IMG/VR virus record: IMGVR_UViG_3300042889_000490 | Span: 1 to 46,342 of that record | Reading direction: 5' to 3' (one strand) | DNA: 46,342 bases | DNA from: a virus | In this document: in pieces, positions 3,449 through 37,539 of the stretch | Position numbering within the stretch: position 1 is the stretch's first letter | Layout of the letters: each line of letters opens with the position of its first letter | The notes under the pieces: generated by a model | Database searches by the model: none | Seen by the model: only the letters and a program-made list of their open reading frames with translations | Told to the model about the DNA's origin: nothing | Made by a program: the position numbers and the translations under genes

Positions 3449-3532
3449 ATGAGTGAAAGAAATAACGAGTACCCAGTATATCCGGAAGACAATGGATATG
3501 ATAGATTTCGTAATCCATACAGTCCGGTATGA
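3449..3532 (+). CDS. Small ORF, 27 residues
   Basis: An ATG at 3449 opens a 27-codon frame rich in Asn, Tyr, Pro and Glu that ends in an ATGA overlap with the desaturase start at 3529. The overlap matches the packing style of this genome and is the main reason to believe it. There is only a weak AGGT upstream and no recognisable domain. It may simply be a leader ORF coupling translation of the desaturase. Confidence 0.4.
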   Translation: MSERNNEYPVYPEDNGYDRFRNPYSPV

Positions 3533-17287: not shown

Positions 17288-17845
17288 ATGAAAACAGTTG
17301 GCAATAAGTTAGAAAAATTCGTAGTCACGGGCGTCAAGCCAGGACAACCAGAAGATGCGTTCTTTGACATCACAGATGAGTCATTTGAAGGCAAGTGGAA
17401 AATCATCGTTTACTATCCAAAAGACTTTACATTTGTATGCCCCACAGAAATTGTGGCCTATGACAAGTTAACAGGTGACTTTGCGGATCGTGACGCTGTA
17501 TTGCTCACAGGTAGCACAGACAACGAGTTCTGCAAGGTGGCATGGCAAAAGAGTCACAGTGATCTAATCAAAATCACACACAACCAATTTGCTGACACAC
17601 AGCGTTGGAACCCAGAAACAAATGAAAATCTAAGTTTGATTGAACAGTTGGGTGTATTTTATACTCCAGCAGGTGCCGCACTTCGTGCAACATTTATTGT
17701 TGACCCAGACAATGTTATTCAACATGTAACAGTTAACAACTTGAATGTTGGTCGTAATCCAGAAGAAACTCTACGTATTTTAGATGCTCTTCAAACTGGC
17801 GAACTATGTGCATGTAACCGCACCGTTGGTGGTGAGACTTTATAA
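17288..17845 (+). CDS. ahpC: Peroxiredoxin AhpC
   Basis: The 185-residue protein is a 2-Cys peroxiredoxin that reduces hydrogen peroxide and organic peroxides. F-T-F-V-C-P-T-E contains the peroxidatic Cys51. The C-terminus has G-E-L-C-A-C-N-R (Cys174, Cys176), the arrangement found in mycobacterial-type AhpC, which is recycled by AhpD instead of AhpF. An AhpD gene follows at once with a TAATG overlap, so the pair is self-consistent. AAAGGA lies upstream. Such a pair is unusual in a phage. Confidence 0.93.
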   Translation: MKTVGNKLEKFVVTGVKPGQPEDAFFDITDESFEGKWKIIVYYPKDFTFVCPTEIVAYDKLTGDFADRDAVLLTGSTDNEFCKVAWQKSHSDLIKITHNQFADTQRWNPETNENLSLIEQLGVFYTPAGAALRATFIVDPDNVIQHVTVNNLNVGRNPEETLRILDALQTGELCACNRTVGGETL

Positions 17846-18380: not shown

Positions 18381-18563
18381 ATGACAAATTTACAAGAACA
18401 TTTTGACGCATATCTAGCAGAGAGTGCAAAGTTTGAAGCCGGTAACAATGCCGCAGGCACTCGTGCTCGCAAGGCCCTGGTAGAACTAGGTAAAGCAGTC
18501 AAGGCACGCCGTAACGAAATTACCGAAACTAAAAATGCGAGAGTAGCTGCCAAAGCAAAATAA
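18381..18563 (+). CDS. Small histone H1-like basic protein
   Basis: The 60-residue protein has an acidic helical start, then a basic Ala-rich half with A-G-T-R-A-R-K-A-L-V-E-L-G-K-A-V-K-A-R-R and a Lys/Ala tail. This resembles the small Hc1/histone H1-like proteins of bacteria and phages. An AAAGGA ribosome site sets the ATG at 18381; an earlier in-frame ATG at 18348 overlaps ahpD but lacks such a site. DNA binding is likely but not proved. The stop overlaps the start of the epimerase gene. Confidence 0.55.
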   Translation: MTNLQEHFDAYLAESAKFEAGNNAAGTRARKALVELGKAVKARRNEITETKNARVAAKAK

Positions 18564-19534
18564 TGAACAGAACTGTTGTTGTAACAGGTGGATGTGGCTA
18601 CATAGGTAGCCATGTTGCGCGAGCATTTAAACAAAACAATGATACTGTAAACATCATTGATCAAATCAAACGAGATCATACTCTCAAAGACATTGATGGA
18701 TATCTGATTGCCGATTTTGCCAGTGACGAGGCATTGTCACTGATTGTTAATTTAGAACCTGATGTTGTTGTGCATTGTGCTGGTACCAGCTTGGTTGGAC
18801 CCAGCATGACTGACCCCGCTGAATACTACACCAACAACATAGTTAAGACCATTGCCTTGTTGAATGTTGTTAGACACATGTCCAAACGGCCTGTGATCTT
18901 GTTTAGTAGCAGTGCCAGTGTTTATGGTGTGCCCGACACTTGGCCCACCGATGAAGGCAGTGACATACAACCTATCAGTCCCTATGGTGCCACCAAGGCC
19001 ATGACTGAACGCATACTGGATGATTACTTCCGAGCATACGATATTCATAGCATGTGTTTTAGGTACTTCAATGCGGCAGGTGCCGAGCCCTTTAACTCGG
19101 ATCTAGGTCAAGAACCGGGCGCTACACATATTGTTGCTCGTGCATTAGAAGCCAGCATTGCTGATCGTGCGTTTACCATCAACGGTGACGATTACGACAC
19201 AGATGATGGTACTTGTGTTCGAGACTATGTACACGTATGGGATTTGGCACAAGCGCACATATTGGGTGTCAACTACCTGTTAGATGACTATCCGCAACCA
19301 GGTGCTTATGTTTTAAATCTTGGCACTCGGGAGGGTATAAGTAATAAACAAATTGTTGATTATGTGTTTAACAAATACGGACTACCATTTGTCAATTACG
19401 GAACAAGACGCCCTGGCGATCCAGATATACTAGTAGCAGACGCCACACAGGCAAAGAACCTATTAGGATGGGTTCCCAAATACAGCAACATCGAAACTAT
19501 TATCGACTCAGCACACAAATGGTACACTAAATGA
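18563..19534 (+). CDS. galE: UDP-glucose 4-epimerase-like NAD-dependent sugar epimerase
   Basis: The 323-residue extended short-chain dehydrogenase begins with the NAD-binding V-T-G-G-C-G-Y-I-G-S-H. It has a catalytic Y-x-x-x-K in S-P-Y-G-A-T-K (Tyr141, Lys145), a preceding S-S-S-A-S-V-Y-G serine segment, and F-R-Y-F-N-A-A-G-A. This pattern fits GalE (UDP-galactose/UDP-glucose interconversion), though related epimerases share it. It leads a block of nucleotide-sugar genes, each overlapping the next by a few bases, suggesting one operon that modifies a glycan. Confidence 0.85.
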   Translation: MNRTVVVTGGCGYIGSHVARAFKQNNDTVNIIDQIKRDHTLKDIDGYLIADFASDEALSLIVNLEPDVVVHCAGTSLVGPSMTDPAEYYTNNIVKTIALLNVVRHMSKRPVILFSSSASVYGVPDTWPTDEGSDIQPISPYGATKAMTERILDDYFRAYDIHSMCFRYFNAAGAEPFNSDLGQEPGATHIVARALEASIADRAFTINGDDYDTDDGTCVRDYVHVWDLAQAHILGVNYLLDDYPQPGAYVLNLGTREGISNKQIVDYVFNKYGLPFVNYGTRRPGDPDILVADATQAKNLLGWVPKYSNIETIIDSAHKWYTK

Positions 19535-19890
19535 CACAACTAAAAGGCCTAGTTCCAAAAGGTTGGGGATCAGAATTTATCTGGGCCACGAACGACCGAT
19601 ACTGCGGCAAATTCATGAACTTCAACACCGGTGCCAAGTTCAGTATGCACTTTCATAGAGACAAAGAAGAAACTTGGTATGTACAATCAGGTAAATTTAT
19701 TGTTCGGTGGATTGATACTGCCACCGCTGAACAACACGAAACAGAATTGCGTGACGGTGCAGTCTGGCACAATGAACCTTGCAAGCCGCATCAACTAGAA
19801 TGCGTTGAAGCTGGTACGGTAATCGAAGTTAGTACACCAGACAGTGTGGAAGACAACTATCGTGTGGGCAAAGGTGATAGCCAACGATGA
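19531..19890 (+). CDS. Cupin, mannose-6-phosphate isomerase-like
   Basis: The 119-residue protein is a single cupin barrel. K-G-W-G-S-E-F at the start, F-S-M-H-F-H-R-D-K-E-E-T-W-Y-V near residue 38 (metal-binding His-x-His and Glu) and a late H-Q-L-E-C matching His resemble the isomerase domain of ManC/type II phosphomannose isomerase. It probably isomerises or binds a sugar phosphate within the surrounding nucleotide-sugar operon, overlapping both neighbours by ATGA. Confidence 0.75.
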   Translation: MTQLKGLVPKGWGSEFIWATNDRYCGKFMNFNTGAKFSMHFHRDKEETWYVQSGKFIVRWIDTATAEQHETELRDGAVWHNEPCKPHQLECVEAGTVIEVSTPDSVEDNYRVGKGDSQR

Positions 19891-20297
19891 CCCGAGTATT
19901 TGTTAACGGCACCTTTGATATCGTTCATCGAGGTCATCTCGAAATGCTAGAATATGCTTGTAGTCTTGGTGATGAAGTATTAGTTGCTATAGACTCAGAT
20001 AGACGAGTTCAAGAACTAAAAGGTAGTGCTAGACCTATCAATAACCAAATTGATAGACAATTTATGCTAGAGAGTTTAAAATATGTTGACAAGGTTTGTA
20101 TTTTTGATTCTGATCAAGAATTAGTTGACACGATCAAGCAGTACGGTGTTGATATCATGGTCAAGGGCAGTGACTACAAAGGCTATCCAATTATTGGACA
20201 AGAATATTGCAAGCAAATAGAATTTTTCAAATTAAAAGATGAATACTCAACAACCAAGACAATTCAAGATATTACTAATCGGCGACGACTGCGTTGA
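19887..20297 (+). CDS. rfaE2: HldE C-domain-like heptose-1-phosphate adenylyltransferase
   Basis: The 136-residue nucleotidyltransferase starts with F-V-N-G-T-F-D-I-V-H-R-G-H, the T/H-x-G-H nucleotide-binding motif. It continues with G-S-A-R-P-I-N and D-I-M-V-K-G-S-D-Y, which closely follow the adenylyltransferase domain of HldE (G-R-P-V-N and D-I-L-V-K-G-G-D-Y). It should make ADP-heptose from heptose 1-phosphate. In most bacteria this domain is fused behind the kinase; here it is separate and comes first, with its 3' end overlapping the kinase gene by 59 bases. Glycerol-3-phosphate cytidylyltransferase is the main alternative but fits less well. Confidence 0.8.
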   Translation: MTRVFVNGTFDIVHRGHLEMLEYACSLGDEVLVAIDSDRRVQELKGSARPINNQIDRQFMLESLKYVDKVCIFDSDQELVDTIKQYGVDIMVKGSDYKGYPIIGQEYCKQIEFFKLKDEYSTTKTIQDITNRRRLR

Positions 20298-21009
20298 TGT
20301 TTACCAGTTTGGAACTGTGGATCGTATCAGTCCCGAGGCTCCTGTGCCGGTGTTTGAATGCACACACGAAGAACGCAAACCTGGCATGGCAGGTAATGTA
20401 TTAAAAAACTTACAAATGCTAGGATGCGAAGTTCTTTACTTGCATTGTGAAAAATCAACAAAAACTAGACTGATTGACAGTCGCAGTAAACAACAAATTG
20501 TACGCATCGACAGCGATAGTAAGTGTACACCACTTGAAAATTGGCCAGAATTTAACTTGGCGTTCTTACATGCCATGCCAGAAAAATTTGATGCTATTGT
20601 TATCAGTGACTATAACAAGGGCACTGTGACTTACAAGTTAATTGCTGAATTACAACAAAGATTTACAGGACCTATTTTTGTTGACACAAAGAAAACAGAT
20701 CTAGCAAGACTTGAAGGCTGTATAGTAAAAATTAATCAACTTGAATTGAGTCGTATCACCAGTCGGTGTACAGATCTAATTGTCACACAAGGTGATAAAG
20801 GTGCCGTATGGAATGACATACATTTTACTACTAGGCGTGTGGAAGTTGCCGATGTGTGCGGTGCCGGAGATACATTTTTAGCGGCATTGACATACAAATA
20901 TCTAATAGAAGATAACATGGCTCCTGCTATAAACTTTGCCATCCGTGCCAGTGCTGTCACTGTACAACACATCGGTAACTATGCACCCAGTGTAGATGAG
21001 GTTGTATGA
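20239..21009 (+). CDS. rfaE1: HldE N-domain-like heptose-7-phosphate kinase
   Basis: The 256-residue PfkB-type kinase contains R-I-S-P-E-A-P-V-P-V near residue 30, a signature of the HldE kinase domain, and D-V-C-G-A-G-D-T-F near residue 210, with the anion-hole G-A-G-D and catalytic Asp. It should phosphorylate D-glycero-D-manno-heptose 7-phosphate at C1. The usual domain is about 315 residues, so some 60 residues are missing, mainly between the substrate and ATP regions. It overlaps the adenylyltransferase gene by 59 bases and hldD by ATGA. Confidence 0.8.
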   Translation: MNTQQPRQFKILLIGDDCVDVYQFGTVDRISPEAPVPVFECTHEERKPGMAGNVLKNLQMLGCEVLYLHCEKSTKTRLIDSRSKQQIVRIDSDSKCTPLENWPEFNLAFLHAMPEKFDAIVISDYNKGTVTYKLIAELQQRFTGPIFVDTKKTDLARLEGCIVKINQLELSRITSRCTDLIVTQGDKGAVWNDIHFTTRRVEVADVCGAGDTFLAALTYKYLIEDNMAPAINFAIRASAVTVQHIGNYAPSVDEVV

Positions 21010-21851
21010 GAATAATGGTCACCGGCAGTCAAGGGTTCATTGGTCGAAATCTAATTGCCTATTTTAAACAACATACCGACTGGCATGTTGACGGATGGGA
21101 TAGTACAGATGAACTCGATCTGTTGTTCAATGATTATGATTGGATCGTACACTTGGGGGCAAACTCAAGTACAGTAGAGCGTGATGTTGATAGCATACTG
21201 CGTACCAACTACGACTTTAGTCGTTGGCTGTATCAACGCTGTTGTGAAGAAGGCATTAACTTACAGTATGCCAGTAGTGCCAGTGTGTACGGACTTGTAT
21301 CTGATTTTCGAGAAGATAGTCCGCCCGATCCTCGCAACCCCTATGCTTGGAGCAAGTACCTGTTTGATCGACATGTAGAACAAAATCCCACCGGAAAAAT
21401 CATTGTGCAAGGATTTAGATACTTTAATGTTTATGGTAATCATGAAGAACATAAAGGATCACAAGCAAGTCCTGTCACCCAATTTAGATTACAGGCCAAT
21501 GCTACAAATACCATAAAACTATTTCATAATAGTGATTATTATTTGCGAGATTTTGTTTGTGTTGAAGATGTTGCCTGGACACATATACAATTCATACAGC
21601 AAGTAATCAATTCAGGAATCTGGAATGTGGGTACTGGTACTGCTGTAAGTTTCAAACATGTAGCTGATCAAATTGTTAGACTAACTCACGCCAACATAGA
21701 ATATATAGATATGCCAGAAGTATTAAAAGGCAATTATCAAGTCTATACTTGTGCCAACACTAACAAGTTGTACGAGGCTATCGGTCCACAAAATTGGATG
21801 TCAATCAAAGATTGGATCAAGGTAAACCCCGATGTTTCACGACCTGTTTAA
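21006..21851 (+). CDS. hldD: ADP-L-glycero-D-manno-heptose 6-epimerase
   Basis: The 281-residue NAD(P)-dependent epimerase begins with V-T-G-S-Q-G-F-I-G-R-N and has Y-A-W-S-K (catalytic Tyr and Lys). HldD-specific segments follow: F-R-Y-F-N-V-Y-G-x-x-E-x-H-K-G-S-x-A-S near residue 140, then L-R-D-F-V-C-V-E-D-V and I-W-N-V-G-T-G-T-A-x-S-F. It epimerises ADP-D,D-heptose to ADP-L,D-heptose, the donor for LPS inner core. Together with the two preceding genes it completes the ADP-heptose end of the pathway. The length is slightly under E. coli HldD (310). Confidence 0.9.
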   Translation: MRIMVTGSQGFIGRNLIAYFKQHTDWHVDGWDSTDELDLLFNDYDWIVHLGANSSTVERDVDSILRTNYDFSRWLYQRCCEEGINLQYASSASVYGLVSDFREDSPPDPRNPYAWSKYLFDRHVEQNPTGKIIVQGFRYFNVYGNHEEHKGSQASPVTQFRLQANATNTIKLFHNSDYYLRDFVCVEDVAWTHIQFIQQVINSGIWNVGTGTAVSFKHVADQIVRLTHANIEYIDMPEVLKGNYQVYTCANTNKLYEAIGPQNWMSIKDWIKVNPDVSRPV

Positions 21852-22416
21852 ATTTGAATCTGCGTTGGCAGAATATACCGGCGCACCTTATGTGGTTGTC
21901 ACAGACGGATGCACTCATGCTATAGAGTTATGCTTTAGATTCAACAGGATTACTTCCTGTGAGTTCTCTGCATTTACCTACATCAGTATTCCACAATTAA
22001 TGCGACAACTAGGTGTACACTATACCTTAAGGTCTGACTATTGGAACTCTATTGGAGAGTATAATTTTGTAGGCACCAACATTTGGGATAGTGCCAGGTT
22101 ACTGCGTCGGGGCATGTATAGACCAGGACAGATGCAATGTCTGAGTTTTGGTCATGGCAAGCCATTGAGCATAGGTCGGGCCGGAGCTATCCTAACAGAC
22201 TCGTATGCACAATATCGCGAACTGAGCCTAATGCGTAGCGATGGTAGAGACTTGTTGATCTCGCCATGGGAACGACAACAGACTTTTGGTGAAGGTTATC
22301 ACTATTGCCCCACACTAGAAACCTGCGCCGTGGGCATAGAAAAATTACCCATGGTTGACCCGGAACCTAAATATCATCAATATCCGGACTTGAGAACCGT
22401 TGACTTTACAAGTTAA
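21832..22416 (+). CDS. Short DegT/DnrJ-type aminotransferase-like protein
   Basis: The 194-residue protein aligns with sugar aminotransferases of the DegT/EryC1 family: Y-T-G-A-P-Y-V-V-V-T-D-G-C-T-H-A-I-E-L near residue 16 (PLP phosphate-binding region) and S-F-G-H-G-K-P-L-S-I-G-R-A-G-A near residue 105, with the Schiff-base Lys. Full enzymes have about 370 residues; here several loops and the C-terminal domain are missing. It may be a minimal or degenerate enzyme. The start overlaps hldD by 20 bases. Confidence 0.7.
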   Translation: MFHDLFKFESALAEYTGAPYVVVTDGCTHAIELCFRFNRITSCEFSAFTYISIPQLMRQLGVHYTLRSDYWNSIGEYNFVGTNIWDSARLLRRGMYRPGQMQCLSFGHGKPLSIGRAGAILTDSYAQYRELSLMRSDGRDLLISPWERQQTFGEGYHYCPTLETCAVGIEKLPMVDPEPKYHQYPDLRTVDFTS

Positions 22417-27202: not shown

Positions 27203-28003
27203 ATGATTAACTTGGATAGACTCAAAAGAGTCTCTCTACAACTTTTATTTGTAGTATCTGTTCCTGTGTCTATTGCAGTTACCATACACTACAATCTGTG
27301 GCTATGGTTTATATGCGGGTTTGTGTATTCTAGAATTGCTGTAACACTGGTCAGTATACAAATTGGTCTACATAGATATTTTGCACACGGACAATTTCGT
27401 ACTGGTAAACTTAGACATATATTTCTATGCTGTATGAGTATTATAGGCGGCGAAGGGGATCCATTGGCATGGTCAAAAACACATGTACATCATCACAAAT
27501 ACAGCGATCAGCCCAAGGACATACACAGTCCAACCGTTGATGGTTGGTTACACAGCAGTCTGGGTTTTATCTTTAAGCCAACTCGTTGGTTTTTAGAAAA
27601 ACATATCCAAATCACCACATCCGGTGTTGTACGCTTGACCAAAGATCCATTGGTAATGTTCATAAATAAAAACTACTTTTACATCTGGTATATGTTAATT
27701 GCAGTTTCATTTTTAATCTCTTGGAAAGTTTGTCTATTCTTTGTCCTAATGCCAGCTGGTATTGCCATCCTGAATACGGGCATACTTTCTGGCACAATAC
27801 TGCACATGAAATTTCCCGGCTCATATAGGAACTACGATACCCCCGACAACAGTCACAACAATCGCTGGATATTGGCCTGGAATTTAGGAGAAGGGCTACA
27901 TAATAATCATCATAAATTTCCATTCGACTATGATACTGCAAAAAAGCCAGGTGAGTTTGATCTAACTGCTTGGGTAATCAAAAAATGGTTTAAAATCAAT
28001 TGA
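27203..28003 (+). CDS. Acyl-CoA/acyl-lipid desaturase (second of two)
   Basis: The 266-residue membrane protein has all three His boxes in canonical spacing: H-R-Y-F-A-H at residues 57-62, H-V-H-H-H near residue 94 and H-N-N-H-H near residue 233. Hydrophobic spans lie at about residues 12-50 and 150-190. This is a classic delta-9-type desaturase layout. It differs clearly from the shorter enzyme at 3529, so the two are unlikely to be recent duplicates. AAGGAA lies upstream. The host must supply electrons. Confidence 0.9.
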   Translation: MINLDRLKRVSLQLLFVVSVPVSIAVTIHYNLWLWFICGFVYSRIAVTLVSIQIGLHRYFAHGQFRTGKLRHIFLCCMSIIGGEGDPLAWSKTHVHHHKYSDQPKDIHSPTVDGWLHSSLGFIFKPTRWFLEKHIQITTSGVVRLTKDPLVMFINKNYFYIWYMLIAVSFLISWKVCLFFVLMPAGIAILNTGILSGTILHMKFPGSYRNYDTPDNSHNNRWILAWNLGEGLHNNHHKFPFDYDTAKKPGEFDLTAWVIKKWFKIN

Positions 28004-30000: not shown

Positions 30001-30734
30001 TCTTGTACATCAATGGCGACAGTCATAGTGTCGGGGCAGAAGCAGTAGTTCCTTATAGTTTTGCCAACGATGGCGATCGTCATTATGCTAGGCCACATAG
30101 GCACGGTCATGCACAAAACTTGCCATCATCTTTTGGTGTCGTTGCGGCTAAAAAATTAGGATGGGATTGGATTAATCAAGCTGAAAGTGGTAGTTCCAAT
30201 GATCGGATCGTACGCACTACAGAGATTTTCCTCGAAACAGCCAGCATCAATGATCTGGTAATATTGATAGGTTGGAGTACATGGGAACGAGAAGAATGGT
30301 TGCATAACGATGTTTATTATCAAGTTAATGCAAGTGGCAAGGACCAAGTTCCCCCAGAATTACGGGATAAATACAAACAGTGGGTTGTAGCGCAGGGTGA
30401 AGTTGAACGAGAACGCAAGATGCTTGAATGGCACAAGCGTATACACCAATTCCATATGAGTCTTAAGTCTCGCGGAATTAGACATCTATTTTTTAATACC
30501 TACTCAAACTTTGCACTAATCGAGCGTGATCATATCTCAACCAATCATATCAATCCGGGCCAGTACGAGTGGCACAACAACTACATAGATCCCTACAATC
30601 AAAATTCCACTTATTACTACTGGCTCGAAAATTTAGGATTCCAAACAGTGGCTGAAGGAAATTACCATTATGGTAAAGAAGCTCACGCAAAATGGGCAGA
30701 ATATCTTGTTACGCATTTGACTCAAATAGAATAA
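29997..30734 (+). CDS. SGNH-hydrolase-like protein
   Basis: The 245-residue protein begins with I-N-G-D-S-H-S (block I with the candidate nucleophile Ser). It has G-S-S-N-D-R near residue 67 and ends with G-K-E-A-H-A-K-W-A-E-Y near residue 225, where the catalytic His of SGNH/GDSL enzymes would lie. Such proteins may deacetylate glycans. The start at 29997 (ATGA overlap) is chosen over an upstream start inside the previous gene. Confidence 0.65.
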   Translation: MILYINGDSHSVGAEAVVPYSFANDGDRHYARPHRHGHAQNLPSSFGVVAAKKLGWDWINQAESGSSNDRIVRTTEIFLETASINDLVILIGWSTWEREEWLHNDVYYQVNASGKDQVPPELRDKYKQWVVAQGEVERERKMLEWHKRIHQFHMSLKSRGIRHLFFNTYSNFALIERDHISTNHINPGQYEWHNNYIDPYNQNSTYYYWLENLGFQTVAEGNYHYGKEAHAKWAEYLVTHLTQIE

Positions 30735-30748
30735 TATGCTATTATAAC
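30717..30748 (+). promoter_or_regulatory. Weak sigma70-like promoter
   Basis: TTGACT at 30717-30722 and TATAAC at 30743-30748 with a long 20-base spacer, right before the ATG at 30752. If used, the transcript would have essentially no leader. Confidence 0.35.
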
Positions 30749-30751
30749 TAC

Positions 30752-31741
30752 ATGAAATATCTTATTGTAGACACCGCAAATACTTTCTTCCGTGCTCGTC
30801 ATGCGGCACATCGTCAGAGCGACACTTGGGATAGACTTGGGTTTGCAATCCATGTCACACTGAGTAGTGTTGCAAAAGCATTTCGCGATCAGCGGGCTGA
30901 TCATGTCATATTCTGTTTAGAAGGTCGTTCGTGGCGTAAGGATTACTATGAGCCGTACAAGAAAAATCGAGCAGTTGCCCGTGCGGCACTCACTGAAAAA
31001 GAGCAAGAAGAAGATCAACTATTTTGGGACGCTTTTGATGAACTCAAAACGTTCCTGTACGAAAAGTCCAATTGTACTGTTCTCCAGCACAGCCAACTCG
31101 AAGCGGATGACCTGGTGGCAGGATGGATTCAAGCACACCCTGGAGATGAACACATAATCGTAAGTTCTGACACAGACTTTTATCAACTGCTGGCCAACAA
31201 TGTTAAACAATATAACGGAATATCAGATGAGCTCCATACCACCACAGGCATCTTTGACAAGAAAGGTGCCCCAGTTAAAGATAAAAAAACTAAAGAAGCA
31301 AAAACTATTCCAGACCCTAAATGGATACTGTTCGAAAAGTGTATGCGCGGAGATCCCACCGACAACATCTTCTCGGCATTCCCTGGTGTCCGCACTAAGG
31401 GCTCTTCGAAAAGAATTGGGCTCGAGGAAGCCTTCCAAGACCGTGAAAATAAAGGTTTCTCTTGGAACAATATGATGTTGCAACGTTGGGTAGACCATAA
31501 TGGTGCAGAACACCGTGTACTAGATGACTATGAACGCAATCGTGTGTTGGTGGATCTTTCTGCACAGCCTGATAATATCAAAGCAATCATTGCAGAAACC
31601 ATTGCCACAAATAGTGTAGTCAAGTCAATACCGCAGATTGGTACTCTGTTCCTAAAGTTCTGTGGCAAGTATGATTTGAAACGCATCAGCGAACAGGCAC
31701 AGTCACATGTGGACTTTCTTTCTAGGAGTTATCCAGAGTGA
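30752..31741 (+). CDS. rnh: T4 Rnh-like 5'-3' exonuclease / RNase H
   Basis: The 329-residue protein is a FEN-type nuclease that removes RNA primers and flaps. L-I-V-D-T-A-N (Asp7), L-E-A-D-D-L-V near residue 110 and S-S-D-T-D-F near residue 134 supply the metal-binding acids; R-G-D-P-T-D-N-I near residue 200 matches the later helix-hairpin region. T4 Rnh has 305 residues. The ATG at 30752 lies just after the SGNH-like gene. It ends in a GTGA overlap with the first gene of the small-protein array. Confidence 0.88.
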   Translation: MKYLIVDTANTFFRARHAAHRQSDTWDRLGFAIHVTLSSVAKAFRDQRADHVIFCLEGRSWRKDYYEPYKKNRAVARAALTEKEQEEDQLFWDAFDELKTFLYEKSNCTVLQHSQLEADDLVAGWIQAHPGDEHIIVSSDTDFYQLLANNVKQYNGISDELHTTTGIFDKKGAPVKDKKTKEAKTIPDPKWILFEKCMRGDPTDNIFSAFPGVRTKGSSKRIGLEEAFQDRENKGFSWNNMMLQRWVDHNGAEHRVLDDYERNRVLVDLSAQPDNIKAIIAETIATNSVVKSIPQIGTLFLKFCGKYDLKRISEQAQSHVDFLSRSYPE

Positions 31742-31956
31742 ATGAGCGTACACAGGCTCTTGCCACTCGGGCTAAAGAAAATGTACCACAAGGTATACTT
31801 GCTGTAGACAAATGGATTGAAACTTACAACAAAGAGTTTGCTAGATTGATTGTGTTGGAATGTGCAGACATTGCTTACAAATTTGATGAGTTGACTTTAG
31901 GGCAAGGCTATACAGTTGCCAAACATATCAAGAAACATTTTGGAATTGAAGAATGA
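31738..31956 (+). CDS. Array family protein 1 (72 residues)
   Basis: First member of the family. It has M-N-E-R-T, a degenerate core (E-F-A-R-L-I-V-L-E-C) near residue 35 and the tail H-F-G-I-E-E. The start is a GTG at 31738 overlapping the rnh stop, so the array is in the same transcript as rnh. Function unknown; predicted mostly helical and soluble. Confidence 0.8.
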   Translation: MNERTQALATRAKENVPQGILAVDKWIETYNKEFARLIVLECADIAYKFDELTLGQGYTVAKHIKKHFGIEE

Positions 31957-32171
31957 ACAAACGATTTAAAGAACTTGCACTACAATGCGGTGCATGGAAT
32001 CAAGTGTATGATCAAAAAAGATTTATGATTGACAAACACTTTGATATTGAGAAGTTCGCCGAACTGATTGTGCAGAAATGTGCTGATATCGGTGCGCTCA
32101 AGGCTGACGGCAATTATGAAGTCTACAACAGCATCGTGGAATACTTTGGAATGCAGGAGTCTGAAGAATGA
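31953..32171 (+). CDS. Array family protein 2 (72 residues)
   Basis: Begins M-N-K-R-F-K-E-L-A, has the core K-F-A-E-L-I-V-Q-K-C near residue 33 and a drifted tail (E-Y-F-G-M-Q-E). The ATG uses the ribosome site encoded in the tail of member 1 and overlaps its stop. Confidence 0.82.
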   Translation: MNKRFKELALQCGAWNQVYDQKRFMIDKHFDIEKFAELIVQKCADIGALKADGNYEVYNSIVEYFGMQESEE

Positions 32172-32380
32172 CATATAAAATGATTGAGGTCGAAGTTGAG
32201 TTATCGGATTTTGATGACGATGAACTTATTGATGAATTGGAAAGCCGTGGTAAGTATTCTCCTACTATGGGTAATAGTGATGAGCTGATTGATAAAATCT
32301 TTCAATTACGGAGACTAGGAAAACCCTATGAACGGGAACTGGATGAATATCTCTATATGCGAACAGGTCGTGCAGTATGA
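32168..32380 (+). CDS. Array passenger ORF, acidic protein (70 residues)
   Basis: Not a family member: no start, core or tail peptide. It is acidic, with D-D-D-E-L-I-D-E-L-E-S-R-G near residue 16 and a second D-E-L-I-D-K-I half-repeat near residue 38, followed by a basic R-R-L-G-K segment. ATGA overlaps on both sides place it in the polycistronic array. Confidence 0.6.
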   Translation: MTYKMIEVEVELSDFDDDELIDELESRGKYSPTMGNSDELIDKIFQLRRLGKPYERELDEYLYMRTGRAV

Positions 32381-32484
32381 AACTAAAAGATATTTTGGAT
32401 GATGCGTTTTTATTCTCTATAGGTACTCTATACTTTTGTATAGTAGGATTTGCATTAGCGTTTATTATAGGGTATTTGATATGA
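32377..32484 (+). CDS. Array passenger membrane micro-protein (35 residues)
   Basis: ATG at 32377 overlaps the previous stop (ATGA). The 35 residues are a short charged start (K-L-K-D-I-L-D-D) and one membrane span to the end. Its stop overlaps the ATG of the next family member at 32481. Confidence 0.55.
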   Translation: MKLKDILDDAFLFSIGTLYFCIVGFALAFIIGYLI

Positions 32485-32699
32485 ATGAACGAATTCAAAA
32501 ACTTGCTGAACAGGCTACTGAATATGCCAATGAACAAAATGAATTATATGGCGTAGGTTATGTAATAACATTCAAGGAAAAGTTCGCCGAGTTGATTGTC
32601 GGTGAATGTGCTGGAATTTATGATAAGATTGATAATGGCAATTTACATATGGGCACCGACAATTATCTTGAAGCCCTACACAAAACATTTCGGAGTTGA
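32481..32699 (+). CDS. Array family protein 3 with frameshifted tail (72 residues)
   Basis: Has M-N-E-R-I-Q-K-L-A-E-Q-A and the core K-F-A-E-L-I-V-G-E-C, but the end island is read one frame off: the DNA that encodes K-H-F-G-V-E-E elsewhere here ends as K-T-F-R-S and a stop. The island DNA itself is intact and still delivers a ribosome site to the next gene. I chose the ATG at 32481 over an earlier in-frame start inside the micro-protein. Confidence 0.8.
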   Translation: MNERIQKLAEQATEYANEQNELYGVGYVITFKEKFAELIVGECAGIYDKIDNGNLHMGTDNYLEALHKTFRS

Positions 32700-32702
32700 A
32701 GA

Positions 32703-32999
32703 ATGAATGAACGAATTAGAGAACTTGCCGAACAGGCTGGAGCCGAAACTTGGAGTCGTGCTCCTATGAGAGCCGTCACTGGATTGGCATTCACTGATGA
32801 GAATTTGGCAAAGTTCGCCGAGTTGATTGTGCGGGAATGTTGTGAACTACTAAAAGATTCGGGCGAGAGTTGGGAGCAGTTTAGTCGTAATCCACCACAG
32901 GGTCAAGCACACAACGCCAGCGGTGCTTTGTTTGCCGCATACCGTTTGAAGGAAGATGCTGTGGATATGTTGGAAGAACATTTCGGAGTTGAATCGTGA
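32703..32999 (+). CDS. Array family protein 4 (98 residues)
   Basis: One of the longest members: M-N-E-R-I-R-E-L-A-E-Q-A, exact core K-F-A-E-L-I-V-R-E-C near residue 37, a longer Gly/Asn/Gln-containing variable region, and the tail H-F-G-V-E-S. Its core DNA is the exact 30-bp island (32811-32840). Confidence 0.85.
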   Translation: MNERIRELAEQAGAETWSRAPMRAVTGLAFTDENLAKFAELIVRECCELLKDSGESWEQFSRNPPQGQAHNASGALFAAYRLKEDAVDMLEEHFGVES

Positions 33000-33256
33000 A
33001 CGAACGAATCAAACAACTTATGATTCGGGCAATAGGTGGTGTTCCTTGCTATGATGCCTCAGTTGGACTTTCTCTTAATCAAGAAGAAGCGGAAAAGTTC
33101 GCCGAGTTGATTGTCAGGGAAATGTGTGGAATGATGGAACAGGCCGAAGATGATGCCTATCATTGTTTTGAACCAAGCGAAAGACCCACTGAATACATTG
33201 AATGGTTGAATCAGTGGCGAACAAGGTTTAAAAACCATTTTGGAGTTGAAGAATGA
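32996..33256 (+). CDS. Array family protein 5 (86 residues)
   Basis: Starts at a GTG (32996) overlapping the previous stop, with M-N-E-R-I-K-Q-L, core K-F-A-E-L-I-V-R-E-M near residue 34 (Cys shifted by one position) and an intact H-F-G-V-E-E tail. The variable region holds M-C-G-M-M and an acidic stretch. Confidence 0.85.
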   Translation: MNERIKQLMIRAIGGVPCYDASVGLSLNQEEAEKFAELIVREMCGMMEQAEDDAYHCFEPSERPTEYIEWLNQWRTRFKNHFGVEE

Positions 33257-33441
33257 ACGAACGAATTAAACAAATTTGGGAAGAGGCTGCTAAAACAACT
33301 CAAAGTGATTCTTGGGAAGAACAGACAAAGTTTATGGAACGGTTCGCCGAGTTGATTGTGCGGGAATGTATTGATACTGCCTTTCATAAAGGTCACCCTG
33401 ATTTAGAATTTTTGTTGAAACATTTCGGAGTTAAAGAATGA
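33253..33441 (+). CDS. Array family protein 6 (62 residues)
   Basis: Compact member: M-N-E-R-I-K-Q-I, core R-F-A-E-L-I-V-R-E-C near residue 30, tail H-F-G-V-K-E. Only about 13 residues separate core and tail, the minimum among the intact copies. Confidence 0.85.
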   Translation: MNERIKQIWEEAAKTTQSDSWEEQTKFMERFAELIVRECIDTAFHKGHPDLEFLLKHFGVKE

Positions 33442-33560
33442 CCGAAGGTGACCGAGCAGGTTGGTGGGCTGTTGTGTATCTGTTGATGGCGGGTGCGGCT
33501 GCTTACTTTACCATTTTTATGATTATTTTCAGTTATGTTAAAAAACTGTTTTGGAGTTGA
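33438..33560 (+). CDS. Array passenger membrane micro-protein (40 residues)
   Basis: ATG at 33438 overlaps the previous stop. It has a short polar start, Trp pair and one long membrane span, then K-K-L-F-W-S. The last codons run over a copy of the array end island (TTTTGGAGTTGAAGAATG) in a frame different from that used by the family, so the island is present but not read as F-G-V-E-E. Confidence 0.55.
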   Translation: MTEGDRAGWWAVVYLLMAGAAAYFTIFMIIFSYVKKLFWS

Positions 33561-33563
33561 AGA

Positions 33564-33761
33564 ATGATAATAGAAAAGGTCAAAATTAATCATCACAATC
33601 GTGTAAAGATTTTGTGTTCGTATTGTGATACATTTAATCATGAGTATGAAACTTATGCTGACCTTGATACACAATTCTGTTATATCTGTCATAAGTGTGC
33701 CATGAATATGATGTTGGTTGATGGGAAAAATTTGGAGTTAAAGAATGAACAAACGAATTAA
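33564..33761 (+). CDS. Array passenger zinc-ribbon-like protein (65 residues)
   Basis: Has C-S-Y-C near residue 18 and C-Y-I-C-H-K-C near residue 39, consistent with a zinc-binding knuckle. Its final residues L-E-L-K-N-E-Q-T-N come from reading the end and start islands of the array in a third frame, running 17 bases into the next family gene. The ATG at 33564 uses the GGAG of the preceding island. Confidence 0.65.
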   Translation: MIIEKVKINHHNRVKILCSYCDTFNHEYETYADLDTQFCYICHKCAMNMMLVDGKNLELKNEQTN

Positions 33762-33981
33762 AGAACTTGCAAAACAATCTCAAATGGTTTTCTGGCCAAC
33801 TGACCGTGAAGTTATCGAACTGATGACAGACATAGACATTGAACAGTTCGCCGAGTTGATTGTAGAAGAATGTGTTAAAGTCTGTGCTGACAGAGGAACA
33901 CATCACGATGGATTATATAGTGCTTGGGCAGATGATTGTTCTAAGCGGATAGGAAAACATTTCGGAGTTGAAGAAAAGTAA
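33745..33981 (+). CDS. Array family protein 7 (78 residues)
   Basis: M-N-K-R-I-K-E-L-A start, core Q-F-A-E-L-I-V-E-E-C near residue 34, tail H-F-G-V-E-E followed by Lys and a TAA stop. It closes the first part of the array; a new promoter follows at once. Confidence 0.85.
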   Translation: MNKRIKELAKQSQMVFWPTDREVIELMTDIDIEQFAELIVEECVKVCADRGTHHDGLYSAWADDCSKRIGKHFGVEEK

Positions 33982-33995
33982 TACTTTCTACTGAA

Positions 33996-34032
33996 TTGAC
34001 AGAAAATGATTTTGGGTATATAATACATGTAT
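33996..34032 (+). promoter_or_regulatory. Strong sigma70-type promoter with ATACATGTAT palindrome
   Basis: TTGACA at 33996-34001 and TATAAT at 34019-34024 have a 17-base spacer. A perfect palindrome ATACATGTAT (34023-34032) overlaps the -10 and the expected start, and is repeated at 43497. It would drive the second part of the array. Confidence 0.85.
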
Positions 34033-34056
34033 TGATTGATAGTGAATAGGAGTTCA

Positions 34057-34263
34057 ATGATGTTTTTCAACTTAAAGATTATCGGTCGTGGCACTGACCC
34101 CAGCATCAACAACCACGCAACAATTGCCTCGGACAAGTCAGTGCTGGATGGTCTTGACCGCAATCGTCCAGCCGGTGGTTATCCTGCTGCCCAAGAGAAA
34201 GCCATTGCTGAAATGCGTCAGCGAGTGGCAGATTACGAAGTCCTACACGGAGAAGTAAAATGA
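34057..34263 (+). CDS. Hypothetical protein within array (68 residues)
   Basis: Not a family member. It has a polar sequence with I-I-G-R-G-T-D-P-S-I-N-N near residue 8 and a helical end. Starts at ATGATG (34057/34060) four to seven bases after AGGAG; this follows the strong promoter at 33996. An upstream TTG at 34036 is less likely. It overlaps the next gene by ATGA. Confidence 0.65.
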   Translation: MMFFNLKIIGRGTDPSINNHATIASDKSVLDGLDRNRPAGGYPAAQEKAIAEMRQRVADYEVLHGEVK

Positions 34264-34451
34264 ACGAACAGACCAAAGCATGGATTGACGGCGCAACATA
34301 CGAGCAGTTGCTGTCTAAATGGAGATATGCCGCACTGGGCGATCCATGTTTCCAAGGTGACACCGGCGAGTATTATTCTAAGATCATGTTTGAAAAGAAA
34401 CAAACAGCGGATCATGTGCAAGCATCCAAAAACGTTGGCTGGGGTAATTGA
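34260..34451 (+). CDS. Hypothetical protein within array (63 residues)
   Basis: Starts M-N-E-Q-T-K-A-W and so keeps a trace of the start island, but has no core or tail. L-L-S-K-W-R-Y-A-A-L-G-D-P-C-F-Q-G near residue 17 and F-E-K-K are typical of small phage proteins I have seen, without known function. Confidence 0.65.
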   Translation: MNEQTKAWIDGATYEQLLSKWRYAALGDPCFQGDTGEYYSKIMFEKKQTADHVQASKNVGWGN

Positions 34452-34452
34452 C

Positions 34453-34629
34453 ATGAACGAACGATTGAAAGAACTTGCTAAACAGGCTGGTGCCACCCTA
34501 GAAAAAGGATACATTGAATTGTCTGATGGACAACTTATGCTGTCCGATAATGTTGACCTGCACTCAACACAGATGTGCGGGCAAAAGCGGTTGACCAATA
34601 ATTACCCATTTGTTATAATACTTGTATAG
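34453..34629 (+). pseudogene. Truncated array family copy (58 residues)
   Basis: M-N-E-R-L-K-E-L-A-K-Q-A-G-A is the family start module, but the frame then runs without core or tail into the promoter at 34591-34619 and stops just after it. It looks like a copy cut by insertion of the promoter-leader unit. It could still be translated. Annotated as pseudogene because both defining downstream modules are absent. Confidence 0.6.
34591..34627 (+). promoter_or_regulatory. Sigma70-type promoter with conserved leader
   Basis: TTGACC at 34591-34596, TATAAT at 34614-34619, 17-base spacer. ATACTTGTAT (34618-34627) and the following AGAAACTAAAAGGAGC are nearly identical to the promoter at 43836. Confidence 0.85.
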
Positions 34630-34648
34630 AAACTAAAAGGAGCCTAAA

Positions 34649-34852
34649 ATGAACGAACGAATTAAACAACTTGTTAGACAGGCTAATACTCGCACCTTTA
34701 TTAACGAAGATGGTAGTCTTACTCCTGAACTGCACAAGTTCGCCGAGTTGATTGTGCGGGAATGTGCTCAGGTCTCTGCTGACTTTGTGCCTGGATATGG
34801 CTTGGAACCTTTCTCTGAGCGATTCAACAAACATTACGGAGTTAAAGAATGA
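34649..34852 (+). CDS. Array family protein 8 (67 residues)
   Basis: First gene behind the promoter at 34591, with a regular AGGAG ribosome site. M-N-E-R-I-K-Q-L-V-R-Q-A, exact core K-F-A-E-L-I-V-R-E-C near residue 30 (DNA island 34736-34765), tail H-Y-G-V-K-E. Confidence 0.87.
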   Translation: MNERIKQLVRQANTRTFINEDGSLTPELHKFAELIVRECAQVSADFVPGYGLEPFSERFNKHYGVKE

Positions 34853-34992
34853 CAGACTATGAATTATCAGAAACAATGAAGACAGCGGCCAAAAGCGTGG
34901 CTGATAATATTGCCCTCCAGATGCTGTTGTTGATGGCGGCAGAACGAATCGAAGAATTGAGTGAGGAGTTGAAGAATGAACGAACTAATTAA
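34849..34992 (+). CDS. Array passenger helical micro-protein (47 residues)
   Basis: ATG at 34849 overlaps the previous stop. The 47 residues form one amphipathic helix (A-L-Q-M-L-L-L-M-A-A-E-R-I-E-E-L) and end E-E-L-K-N-E-R-T-N by reading the boundary islands in the same alternative frame as the zinc-ribbon-like ORF at 33564. It overlaps the next gene by 17 bases. Confidence 0.55.
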   Translation: MTDYELSETMKTAAKSVADNIALQMLLLMAAERIEELSEELKNERTN

Positions 34993-35212
34993 AGAACTTG
35001 CTGTAGAGGCTACAAAATACGCCAATACCTTAATGATAGATTACCTTGATTTAAGTGATGAAGATTATGCCATCAAGTTTGGGGAAGTGTATAACGAAAA
35101 GTTCGCCGAGTTGATTGTGCGGGAATGTGTTGAAGAAATCATTGACCGAGAGAAAGCCGATGGCGATTGGTGCTGTTCAAAAATTTTTAAACATTTCGGA
35201 GTTGAAGAATGA
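34976..35212 (+). CDS. Array family protein 9 (78 residues)
   Basis: M-N-E-L-I-K-E-L-A-V-E-A, exact core near residue 42 (DNA island 35099-35128), tail H-F-G-V-E-E. The variable region before the core is Tyr- and Asp-rich; that after it has W-C-C. Confidence 0.87.
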   Translation: MNELIKELAVEATKYANTLMIDYLDLSDEDYAIKFGEVYNEKFAELIVRECVEEIIDREKADGDWCCSKIFKHFGVEE

Positions 35213-35409
35213 ACGAACGAATTAAACAACTGTTGATCCAGTCTGAGGTCTTTAACAAAGACGGGACTGTACTGAAAGATGTTACAGGATATGAACTGAA
35301 CAAGTTCGCCCAGTTGCTTGTGGCAGATTGTATTGAACTTGCAGGTAATCATTATGATGCTCGCAGTGCAGTAAATGATATTAAACAACATTTCGGAGTT
35401 AAAGAATGA
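35209..35409 (+). CDS. Array family protein 10, diverged core (66 residues)
   Basis: M-N-E-R-I-K-Q-L-L-I-Q-S start and H-F-G-V-K-E tail, but the core has drifted to K-F-A-Q-L-L-V-A-D-C. This suggests that the tail island can be kept while the core changes. Confidence 0.85.
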   Translation: MNERIKQLLIQSEVFNKDGTVLKDVTGYELNKFAQLLVADCIELAGNHYDARSAVNDIKQHFGVKE

Positions 35410-35537
35410 AGACACTGTTTGCCGTGGTTGGTGGATTTGTAGTGTTGCTGGCTGTGCTGGGCACATTGAATGTTGGTAACTTTGTGCTGATGTACAGCCC
35501 AGATAAAATCTCTTGTACTAAAGGAGTTGAAGAATGA
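35406..35537 (+). CDS. Array passenger membrane micro-protein with in-frame tail (43 residues)
   Basis: ATG at 35406 overlaps the previous stop. One N-terminal membrane span (residues 4-22), a short polar region, and the family tail read in frame (K-G-V-E-E). It is unrelated to the family apart from that tail. Could be membrane-anchored or exported. Confidence 0.6.
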   Translation: MKTLFAVVGGFVVLLAVLGTLNVGNFVLMYSPDKISCTKGVEE

Positions 35538-35629
35538 TTGAATTTTTAATAGTTTATGCTATTGCTCTTGGAATGTTATTCCTGTTGGCAATAGTAGGCA
35601 GTCTTTTTGTTAAAGGGTTAGAGAAATGA
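35534..35629 (+). CDS. Array passenger membrane micro-protein (31 residues)
   Basis: ATG at 35534 overlaps the previous stop; nearly the whole sequence is one membrane span, ending V-K-G-L-E-K. Its stop overlaps the next ATG at 35626. Supported by overlaps and by the island-derived ribosome site upstream. Confidence 0.5.
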   Translation: MIEFLIVYAIALGMLFLLAIVGSLFVKGLEK

Positions 35630-35847
35630 CCACACGAATTAAAGAACTTAAACAACAGGCCACGGACTATGTTGACGGCGTTAACGCTGGACTTAAACTG
35701 GACCATTATCAACAATTTGTGGACTTGAAATTCGCTGAGTTGGTATTAGTTGAAGTATATGCTTACATTCTTAATGCCACACTAGACGATCAACCCTGGC
35801 CAGATTTTGCTACAGTCAAGCGACATTTTTTCGGAGTTGAACTATGA
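35626..35847 (+). CDS. Array family protein 11, diverged (73 residues)
   Basis: M-T-T-R-I-K-E-L-K-Q-Q-A start, core drifted to K-F-A-E-L-V-L-V-E-V, tail H-F-F-G-V-E-L with one extra Phe codon. The extra codon sits at the edge of the end island. Confidence 0.82.
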   Translation: MTTRIKELKQQATDYVDGVNAGLKLDHYQQFVDLKFAELVLVEVYAYILNATLDDQPWPDFATVKRHFFGVEL

Positions 35848-36095
35848 ACGAACGAATGCAAGAACTTTATGATCAGGCATTTACACTAGGAACCAGTGGG
35901 TATTCCAATGGAGAACTCGATGTAGAACAGTTCGCCGAGTTGATTGTGAAAGAATGTGCCGACTTGTTTGTGGATCAACGGTACATGATACTAAATCCAC
36001 ATGAGCCATTTGCCAATGAACGAGTTCGTGCGTTGAAAGAACATGACAAGGATACGGTTAGAAAGATTAGAAAACATTTTGGAGTTAAAGAATGA
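35844..36095 (+). CDS. Array family protein 12 (83 residues)
   Basis: M-N-E-R-M-Q-E-L start, core Q-F-A-E-L-I-V-K-E-C near residue 30, tail H-F-G-V-K-E. The long variable region after the core is charged and helical. Confidence 0.85.
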   Translation: MNERMQELYDQAFTLGTSGYSNGELDVEQFAELIVKECADLFVDQRYMILNPHEPFANERVRALKEHDKDTVRKIRKHFGVKE

Positions 36096-36352
36096 ATGAA
36101 CGAATTAAAGAACTTGCTGAACCGTGCCGAATTGAAACTTACGGAGTAAATGGTGAGCTGTTGGTAGCTGACTTCGATGAACAAAAGTTCGCCGAGTTGA
36201 TTGTGCGGGAATGTTTGGGCATTGTTAAGTCAAATACTTACGGTCCAGCAGGAGAATACAATTATAGTTACTCGGATGAAAGTGCCGCGGCAGATAAACG
36301 GGCAGAAACTATTTACGAAGATATCTCATATCGTTTCGGAGTTGAAGAATGA
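36092..36352 (+). CDS. Array family protein 13 (86 residues)
   Basis: M-N-E-R-I-K-E-L-A-E start, exact core near residue 32 (DNA island 36185-36214), a Tyr/Ser/Gly-rich variable region, tail R-F-G-V-E-E. Confidence 0.86.
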   Translation: MNERIKELAEPCRIETYGVNGELLVADFDEQKFAELIVRECLGIVKSNTYGPAGEYNYSYSDESAAADKRAETIYEDISYRFGVEE

Positions 36353-36648
36353 ATGAACTTACACCAGACGAACACAAGATACTAGTTGATGCTATTCAGG
36401 ATTCTGCCACTGTTGTACATAAAGGACGAAAAGATATGAACGAACGGATTAAACAACTTGCTCTACAGGCTCAAAAAGTTGTTGGATATACTGATGGTGG
36501 ATATACAGAAATCAAAGCATTAGACCAGGAAAAGTTCGCCGAGTTGATTGTGAAAGAATGTTGTGATATTGTCAGACAATGTAGATTTGCTCCCGATGAA
36601 GATGCCATCGTAAATGAAATTGTACATCATTTCGGAGTTGAACTATGA
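36349..36648 (+). CDS. Array family protein 14 with N-terminal extension (99 residues)
   Basis: The frame begins M-N-E-L-T-P-D-E-H-K and, 29 residues later, contains a complete second family start (M-N-E-R-I-K-Q-L-A) at 36436 with its own AAAGGA site. Core K-F-A-E-L-I-V-K-E-C, tail H-F-G-V-E-L. Either the extension is a fused passenger or both starts are used. Confidence 0.82.
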   Translation: MNELTPDEHKILVDAIQDSATVVHKGRKDMNERIKQLALQAQKVVGYTDGGYTEIKALDQEKFAELIVKECCDIVRQCRFAPDEDAIVNEIVHHFGVEL

Positions 36649-36857
36649 ACGAACGAATCATAGAACTTGCTGAACAGGCCGGCTTTGAAAATGGACACCA
36701 AGACCGCTATGGAAATTCATTGTCACAAGAATTAGAAAAGTTCGCCGAGTTGATTGTTCGGGAATGTACCGAGGTCACTGCTGACTGGTATAAAAATCAT
36801 AATCAATATCATATGCCCCCTGATGAACATATTAAAGCGCATTTTGGAGTTGAATGA
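36645..36857 (+). CDS. Array family protein 15 (70 residues)
   Basis: M-N-E-R-I-I-E-L-A-E-Q-A, exact core K-F-A-E-L-I-V-R-E-C near residue 29 and tail H-F-G-V-E. Last full member of the array; its stop overlaps the start of the membrane protein at 36854. Confidence 0.86.
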   Translation: MNERIIELAEQAGFENGHQDRYGNSLSQELEKFAELIVRECTEVTADWYKNHNQYHMPPDEHIKAHFGVE

Positions 36858-37129
36858 TGATTTGGAAACTATTAGCCACAATATTGTCAGCATTTACATT
36901 GTTATTTGCCTCACCCCTTTTGGTATCATTTATTGATATGTTTTATTGGTTTTGGACTAATACAACATGGACTGGGTTAAAATACTCAGACGGCGAAGGA
37001 GGCATAAGATTAGCAGTAATGTTCATGTTAATGATACCTGCATTAGTATGTTGGACATTTGCATCTATTATCTTTGGCGCCTTGGCGGAAGATAAGAAGA
37101 TGAAAGAACATTTCGGAGTTGAAGAATGA
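36854..37129 (+). CDS. Membrane protein carrying the array tail (91 residues)
   Basis: Two membrane spans (about residues 4-28 and 54-76) flank a Trp-rich loop; the last residues are K-E-H-F-G-V-E-E, the family tail in frame, although start and core modules are missing. It shows the tail island attached to an unrelated protein, again supplying GGAG to the gene after it. Confidence 0.75.
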   Translation: MMIWKLLATILSAFTLLFASPLLVSFIDMFYWFWTNTTWTGLKYSDGEGGIRLAVMFMLMIPALVCWTFASIIFGALAEDKKMKEHFGVEE

Positions 37130-37539
37130 AATTGGAACTAGACGCATTGTTATGTGAGAAGTATCCCAAGATGATGGTGAATCGTAACAAGAGCATGATG
37201 GAAACCACCATGTATTGGGGATTTGAATGTGGCGATGGTTGGTACAATATCATTGATCAACTCATGGGCAATATACAACATCACATTGATTGGCGGAATA
37301 GAAAAGGTGAGATTGTAACACAGGTAACTGTAGATCAAGTTAAAGAAAAGTTTGGTACACTACGTTTTTACTACACAGGTGGTGATGACTACATTGACGG
37401 ACTTGTTAGTATGGCACAATCTATGTCGGGTGTTACTTGCGAAACATGCGGTAACCCTGGTAAGAGTACGGGTGGTGGTTGGATTAAAACAGTATGTGAA
37501 GCCCATAGCGGCAGAAAGAACAATGATGAAAACAGTTAA
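37126..37539 (+). CDS. Phage protein with C-terminal zinc knuckle (137 residues)
   Basis: E-C-G-D-G-W-Y-N-I-I near residue 33 and V-K-E-K-F-G-T-L-R-F-Y-Y near residue 71 precede a C-E-T-C-G-N-P-G ... V-C-E-A-H element near residue 104 that probably binds zinc. Proteins of this layout are common in phages; function unknown to me. Translation uses the island at the end of the previous gene. Confidence 0.7.
   Translation: MKLELDALLCEKYPKMMVNRNKSMMETTMYWGFECGDGWYNIIDQLMGNIQHHIDWRNRKGEIVTQVTVDQVKEKFGTLRFYYTGGDDYIDGLVSMAQSMSGVTCETCGNPGKSTGGGWIKTVCEAHSGRKNNDENS

Follow-up and report, generated by a model that had tools for sequence, protein, structure and literature searches.

Short conserved boundary sequences have been proposed as drivers of phage mosaicism; it is still debated whether module junctions form through homology at such sequences or through illegitimate joining, since the sequences themselves are rarely seen at junctions (PMC3029335). 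Island3 gp68 has 18 C-terminal residues in common with the adjacent gp67 (PMC3029335). Here we describe a tandem array of 16 small genes in a virus genome, IMG/VR record IMGVR_UViG_3300042889_000490 (46,342 bases; this whole stretch is referred to below as the window), which we class with homology-driven phage mosaicism. As in the described cases, short-sequence homology appears to form the module junctions, and the shared HFGVEE tails of the array proteins resemble the gp68/gp67 pair; what differs is that hundreds of junctions are found here, many of them intragenic, with a near-complete loss of linkage between the N and C halves of the genes. The same short conserved sequence occurs at many junctions of dissimilar modules, and homology between phages begins or ends at joint sequences. 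Junctions fall at gene borders for one of the two joints, the tail/start joint; the other, a conserved core, lies within the gene, and this is where the array departs from its class. We found no description of an intragenic joint with free reassortment of protein halves in the literature consulted, and a literature search with the signature peptides returned no match.

Other known systems invite comparison. PeSL cassettes of T4-type phages, reportedly the work of Arbiol in 2010 and Comeau in 2014, are said to be promoter and stem-loop elements between genes. The array resembles them in having short conserved regulatory DNA between small genes, in lying in plastic T4-like regions, and in being a site of module exchange, but its first joint consists of a ribosome-binding site and gene ends with no significant fold, and its second joint is intragenic and would swap halves. 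The carrier is T4-like, on the evidence of the DNA polymerase (phrog_262) and 5'-3' exonuclease (phrog_107) of the window and from the ligase, clamp loader, and RNA ligase genes near the arrays of other carriers. Neither a stem-loop nor an early promoter was found in the shared sequence: the predicted RNA fold is not significant in either island (z of about -0.7 for the core and -0.6 for the tail), and the 150 nt preceding family genes, at 707 gene places, contain only 13 near-consensus promoters. Shufflons and pilin and surface-protein cassettes join many alternative segments to conserved ones and so make protein diversity. The array is like them in that respect but differs in three others: its pool is distributed among the genomes of many viruses, complete genes predominate among the copies, and neither an invertase nor an expression site was seen. 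Diversity-generating retroelements also diversify phage proteins, but they do so by adenine-directed mutation copied from a template repeat by a reverse transcriptase, whereas variation in the array genes comes from module reassortment under purifying selection and not from directed mutation, no search aimed at a template repeat or reverse transcriptase having been made.

The original prediction described 16 paralogous genes sharing three conserved DNA islands, and the array is as described, with 15 complete copies and 1 truncated copy on the + strand at 31738-36857. The start, core, and tail peptides given for it (M-N-E-R-I-K-x-L, K-F-A-E-L-I-V-R-E-C, and H-F-G-V-E-E) are common to the array, with the exceptions that copy 12 starts MTTRI and that copy 3 reads its tail in another frame; copy 8 (34453-34629) has only the start island and the N segment, the core and tail being missing. 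Across the 15 complete copies, 18 to 30 of the 30 bases of the core, AAGTTCGCCGAGTTGATTGTGCGGGAATGT, are conserved. Its first 21 bases are matched exactly in at least 120 viral contig stretches, inside genes of the same type and far beyond chance, and in bacterial genomes only in two short contigs of metagenome-assembled genomes.

Family genes were collected by the exact core 21-mer, a fully degenerate protein-level pattern, a profile search, and the tail joint, and the halves of 556 unique genes from uncultured viruses were clustered at 60% protein identity with single linkage. Among pairs of these genes, 340 have the same N half, 267 have the same C half, and 10 have both, where 0.59 would be expected if the halves were fully independent. 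Almost every cluster with several members has more than one partner (96 of 98 for N halves and 98 of 101 for C halves). Some gene pairs are 100% identical in one half, whether N or C, and unrelated in the other, with the switch falling within the core; in the identity profile of pairs sharing only the C half, the N side stands at ~0.28, the level of unrelated genes, and the C side at ~0.8, and pairs sharing only the N half give the mirror image. In the window, 10 of the 15 complete copies have at least one half elsewhere in the 556-gene set but never both, although two loci fetched later and outside that set, L339 and L340, supply an ortholog of copy 1 carrying both halves. Among the related phages at loci L036, L055, L116, L121, and L123, identical halves are re-dealt into other pairs and orders. 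Reassortment of N with C halves at the core is well supported and almost unrestricted, and the halves are near linkage equilibrium across uncultured phages.

The ends of intragenic homology, taken over all loci, fall within the islands in ~80% of cases, although the islands make up only 41% of the length; enrichment is 2.4- to 2.6-fold in the core and 1.6- to 1.7-fold in the tail/start joint, against 0.26- to 0.40-fold in the variable parts. Linkage is likewise absent between the C half of a gene and the N half of its downstream neighbour (among abutting pairs, 15 have the same C half, 13 have the same N half, and 0 have both), so half-genes are able to move separately, and a core-to-core mobile unit made of a C half plus the N half of the next gene is rejected by the same counts.

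The core is conserved as DNA and not only as peptide. In a sample of 131 genes from 70 loci, fetched by a pattern blind to codon choice, core codon use departs strongly from background: AAG, 0.85 versus 0.37; TTC, 0.70 versus 0.31; GCC, 0.73 versus 0.22; GAG, 0.83 versus 0.26; TTG, 0.82 versus 0.26; ATT, 0.95 versus 0.52; and CGG, 0.58 versus 0.05. The same rare codons are retained in otherwise unrelated genes, and the synonymous difference in core codons 1 to 6 is lower between unrelated genes (0.40) than between homologous N halves (0.50). This conservation is due to DNA-level selection or to homogenisation by repeated exchange, either of which fits a recombination joint. Codon 8 and the final base of codon 7 (core offsets 20 to 23; window 36205-36208, for example) vary and, even between recent recombinants, are only weakly linked to both halves. 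No palindrome was found in the core, and neither island had a match in Rfam. An internal start codon in the core was considered and rejected, as only 54% of the valine codons there are GTG.

The array region is laid out as follows, with coordinates in the window and loci of other phages given by their L numbers.

30692-31741, + strand: 5'-3' exonuclease (phrog_107), upstream of the array
31738-31956, + strand: copy 1, GTG start, 4-nt overlap with the exonuclease stop; core 31834-31863; L339 and L340 have an ortholog matching in both halves
31953-32171, + strand: copy 2; core 32052-32081; same C half in L084 and L119; N half kept and C half different in L340
32481-32699, + strand: copy 3; core 32580-32609; tail DNA retained in a different frame
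32703-32999, + strand: copy 4; core 32811-32840; C half in L011, N half in L200
32996-33256, + strand: copy 5, GTG start; core 33095-33124; C half in L052 and L108
33253-33441, + strand: copy 6; core 33340-33369; C half in L018, L097, and L128, N half in L085
33745-33981, + strand: copy 7; core 33844-33873; C half in L047
33996-34024, + strand: sigma70-type promoter match TTGACA-17-TATAAT within the array, 12/12, a consensus match only
34453-34629, + strand: copy 8, truncated; a promoter match overlaps its end
34591-34619, + strand: sigma70-type promoter match TTGACC-17-TATAAT before copy 9, 11/12, a consensus match only
34649-34852, + strand: copy 9; core 34736-34765
34976-35212, + strand: copy 10; core 35099-35128
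35209-35409, + strand: copy 11; core 35302-35331
35626-35847, + strand: copy 12, MTTRI start; diverged core 35728-35757
35844-36095, + strand: copy 13; core 35928-35957; C half in L171
36092-36352, + strand: copy 14; core 36185-36214; N half in L015, L024, L216, L220, and L223, C half in L214
36436-36648, + strand: copy 15, its reading frame also open from 36349; core 36532-36561
36628-36670, + strand: example of the tail/start joint, CATTTCGGAGTTGAACTATGAACGAACGAATCATAGAACTTGC, with the end of copy 15, the Shine-Dalgarno GGAG, and the start of copy 16
36645-36857, + strand: copy 16; core 36738-36767; N half in L037, L078, and L331
36854-37129, + strand: unrelated hydrophobic small open reading frame (ORF) with the tail HFGVEE at its end
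37126-37539, + strand: flanking gene, directly after copy 1 in L339 and directly after the exonuclease in L343

Unrelated small ORFs stand between the copies at 32168-32380, 33438-33560, 33564-33761, 34060-34263, 34260-34451, 34849-34992, 35406-35537, and 36854-37129, and several of them terminate in or before the same tail DNA as the copies.

The tail encodes the Shine-Dalgarno sequence, the ribosome-binding site, of the next gene: GGAG lies 7 nt ahead of the next start codon in 485 of ~590 joints, and of 84 cases in which genes abut, 73 show a 4-nt overlap. The joint is translated as FGV(E/K)E by 560 upstream ORFs and in another frame by 30, and a stricter form of it is found upstream of 123 core-bearing and 437 core-less ORFs. 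Copy 3 retains the tail DNA and reads it as ..KTFRS*, so the tail is conserved as DNA. HFGVEE is the usual in-frame reading of a translation joint common to many unrelated small genes. The joint, TTYGGAGTTGAAGA-ATG, stands before hundreds of unrelated small ORFs, among them short membrane peptides and zinc-ribbon-like and lipoprotein-like proteins, and small-gene exchange through the joint would therefore extend well beyond the core-bearing family.

Both the core (36185-36214, for example) and the tail joint (36628-36648, for example) contain TTCG(CC)GAGTTGA, a resemblance whose score is reached by 1 to 2.5% of shuffles. A 2-base insertion in the tail joint would change FGVEE* to FAEL.., and the intragenic core may thus descend from the tail/start joint, the family stemming from the fusion of two joint-linked small genes; this is suggestive only.

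A test set beforehand was whether close relatives carry the array genes in a fixed order. The outcome speaks against a fixed set: relatives retrieved with the exonuclease, 74 to 97% identical, hold 0, 1, or 2 copies at the site. In L339 (97%), the only copy is the ortholog of copy 1, and its tail joint runs directly into the counterpart of the window gene at 37126. L340 (94%) has copy 1 followed by a copy 2 that is homologous up to 32081, the final base of that copy's core, with a different C half thereafter, and its homology to the window resumes at ~37526. No copies are present in L341 and L342 (90%), where the exonuclease is followed by the sequence of window 37522, or in L343 (93%), where it is followed by the counterpart of the 37126 gene. 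Most of the remaining exonuclease relatives have no copy in the available DNA, some of these loci ending soon after the exonuclease. The low copy numbers and the position of the breakpoints mean that the site gains and loses copies, with the changes located at the joints, and the view of the array as dynamic and rich in variants is borne out. Over the whole family, with loci clipped at ≤16 kb, 122 loci have 1 copy, 83 have 2, 37 have 3, 28 have 4, 17 have 5, and others have up to 11, the window array being the longest seen; family genes lie on a single strand in 303 of 304 loci.

We consider it very probable that half-genes and whole small genes are swapped between phages by recombination at short shared joints, and the array resembles a sampling of a common combinatorial pool of modular accessory genes rather than a set of copies of one gene. 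Joint 1 would be the ~40-bp tail/start element, comprising the HFGVEE end, the Shine-Dalgarno GGAG, the 4-nt ATGA overlap, and the MNERIKEL start; recombination there would add, remove, or replace whole small genes, both within the family and among many unrelated ones. Joint 2 would be the 30-bp intragenic core (KFAELIVREC), where recombination would replace an N or a C half. In co-infected cells, the common sequence would allow joints to pair, whether they belong to different phages or to separate copies within one array; flanks would then be exchanged, new N-C pairs would arise, and copy numbers would change. The agent is presumably the general homologous or annealing recombination of the phage or the host, acting over 20 to 40 bp, and shuffling may persist through the advantage that new combinations bring when host or rival-phage targets change.

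The proteins themselves are mostly 60 to 100 residues long and acidic. Their halves evolve under purifying selection, with ratios of nonsynonymous to synonymous substitution rates of 0.24 to 0.33 for recent pairs and of 0.10 to 0.16 for older ones, the older values being biased down by the clustering cut-off. The AlphaFold2 model of copy 16 has helices at residues 3-11, 26-52, and 59-67 (mean predicted local distance difference test score, 81.6), and that of copy 14 has a helix, a beta-hairpin, and two further helices (score, 87.5); in both, the core lies inside the middle helix with the variable segments on either side. Each protein would then be a scaffold, helical for the most part, in which two variable parts can be exchanged. 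That the proteins interact with changing host or rival-phage targets, where new combinations help, seems to us about evenly balanced. No family in Pfam, PHROGs, or PADLOC covers them, and only isolated weak matches were obtained.

Several points weigh against our preferred explanation. All family genes derive from uncultured assemblies; the core is only 20 to 30 bp long; and no recombinase or nuclease gene stands consistently beside the arrays among the 86 neighbours scanned. A structure search with the two models gave no PDB or BFVD match at E < 0.7, the second model being searched against PDB only, which makes the case for the interaction role an indirect one. The weak linkage of codon 8 persists in recent exchanges and therefore requires several events per lineage. 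Several exchanges per lineage could be enough to explain it; hypermutation of codon 8 is not needed, since pairs with both halves shared mostly retain the codon.

The lack of a constant neighbour also counts against a different agent, a dedicated site-specific recombinase or endonuclease that recognises the core, and perhaps the tail motif, as its conserved site. The strong synonymous conservation of the core, the motif it has in common with the tail, and HNH endonuclease genes near some arrays (4 of the 86 neighbours) are what such an enzyme would lead one to expect, but the shuffles mentioned above reach the motif score too often, exchanged genes include core variants with several changes, and the core has neither a palindrome nor a significant fold; we judge this agent unlikely. 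Still less probable, in our view, is that most of the new N-C pairs arose as chimeras when metagenomes were assembled across repeated islands. The islands are indeed short repeats in assemblies of uncultured viruses, and recurring N-C pairs are few (10 of several hundred), but a 30-bp repeat is spanned by the longest k-mers that assemblers commonly use, copy 1 has both its halves in three separate contigs, and in L339 and L340 the sequence matches the window to the left and to the right of the array, so that an error would have to leave and re-enter the same lineage. The original prediction favored amplification, that is, local duplication in tandem with the variable parts diverging afterwards, and the tandem layout, the shared islands, and the 4-nt overlaps would suit it. 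This part of the prediction did not hold, and we give it hardly any credence: the mean pairwise identity of variable segments within the window (N, 0.19; C, 0.20) is that of random genes of other phages (0.18 and 0.21), so the copies were gathered from a wider pool, and in addition halves recur in other phages with different partners and relatives have 0 to 2 copies at the site. Beyond the exchange at joints that we favor, one may imagine a distributed phage system with a half-gene pool, an enzyme-served intragenic site, and selection for shuffling itself, giving each phage its own two-part protein set; this more far-reaching version strikes us as doubtful.

With joints visible at hundreds of junctions, the question of short homology versus illegitimate joining becomes directly testable. 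The family also amounts to a natural two-part protein library shaped by selection, and part of the large set of orphan small phage proteins may be explained by half-gene shuffling. Gene-level clustering will overlook homology where gene halves have separate histories.

As for expression, the array had been placed in one transcript with the replication nuclease gene. The exonuclease gene does lie directly upstream and overlaps copy 1, but a common transcript is not required, as the array has two strong matches to sigma70-type promoters of its own. The array strand is rich in near-consensus sigma70 promoters (TTGAC-N18-TATAAT), with 518 in the scanned loci. From these host-type promoter matches, within the window array and in the carriers generally, early expression of the array genes is likely. 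The large neighbours of arrays are ligases, exonucleases, helicases, the clamp loader, and other large-phage replication genes.

Single copies had also been said to occur in other phage genomes. This is true of uncultured viral contigs, but GenBank phages, searched by DNA or protein, contain no annotated member and yield one weak relative, an unannotated ORF in MW202520. In that sequence (L416, Manatee Spring), the start and N half of the ORF at 1501-1752 resemble the family (compare L110), and its C-terminal part is of another type, FAELVRQDERKSC...

Elsewhere in the window, the DNA polymerase has its nearest match in Sinorhizobium phage Phosso (~51%). Two fatty acid desaturase-like genes occur within this one phage fragment, at 3529-4239 and 27203-28003, and an AhpC/TSA-like gene (17288-17845) accompanies a sugar-nucleotide cluster at 18563-22416 with epimerases, a PfkB-like gene, and a DegT aminotransferase-like gene, the PfkB and DegT matches being partial.

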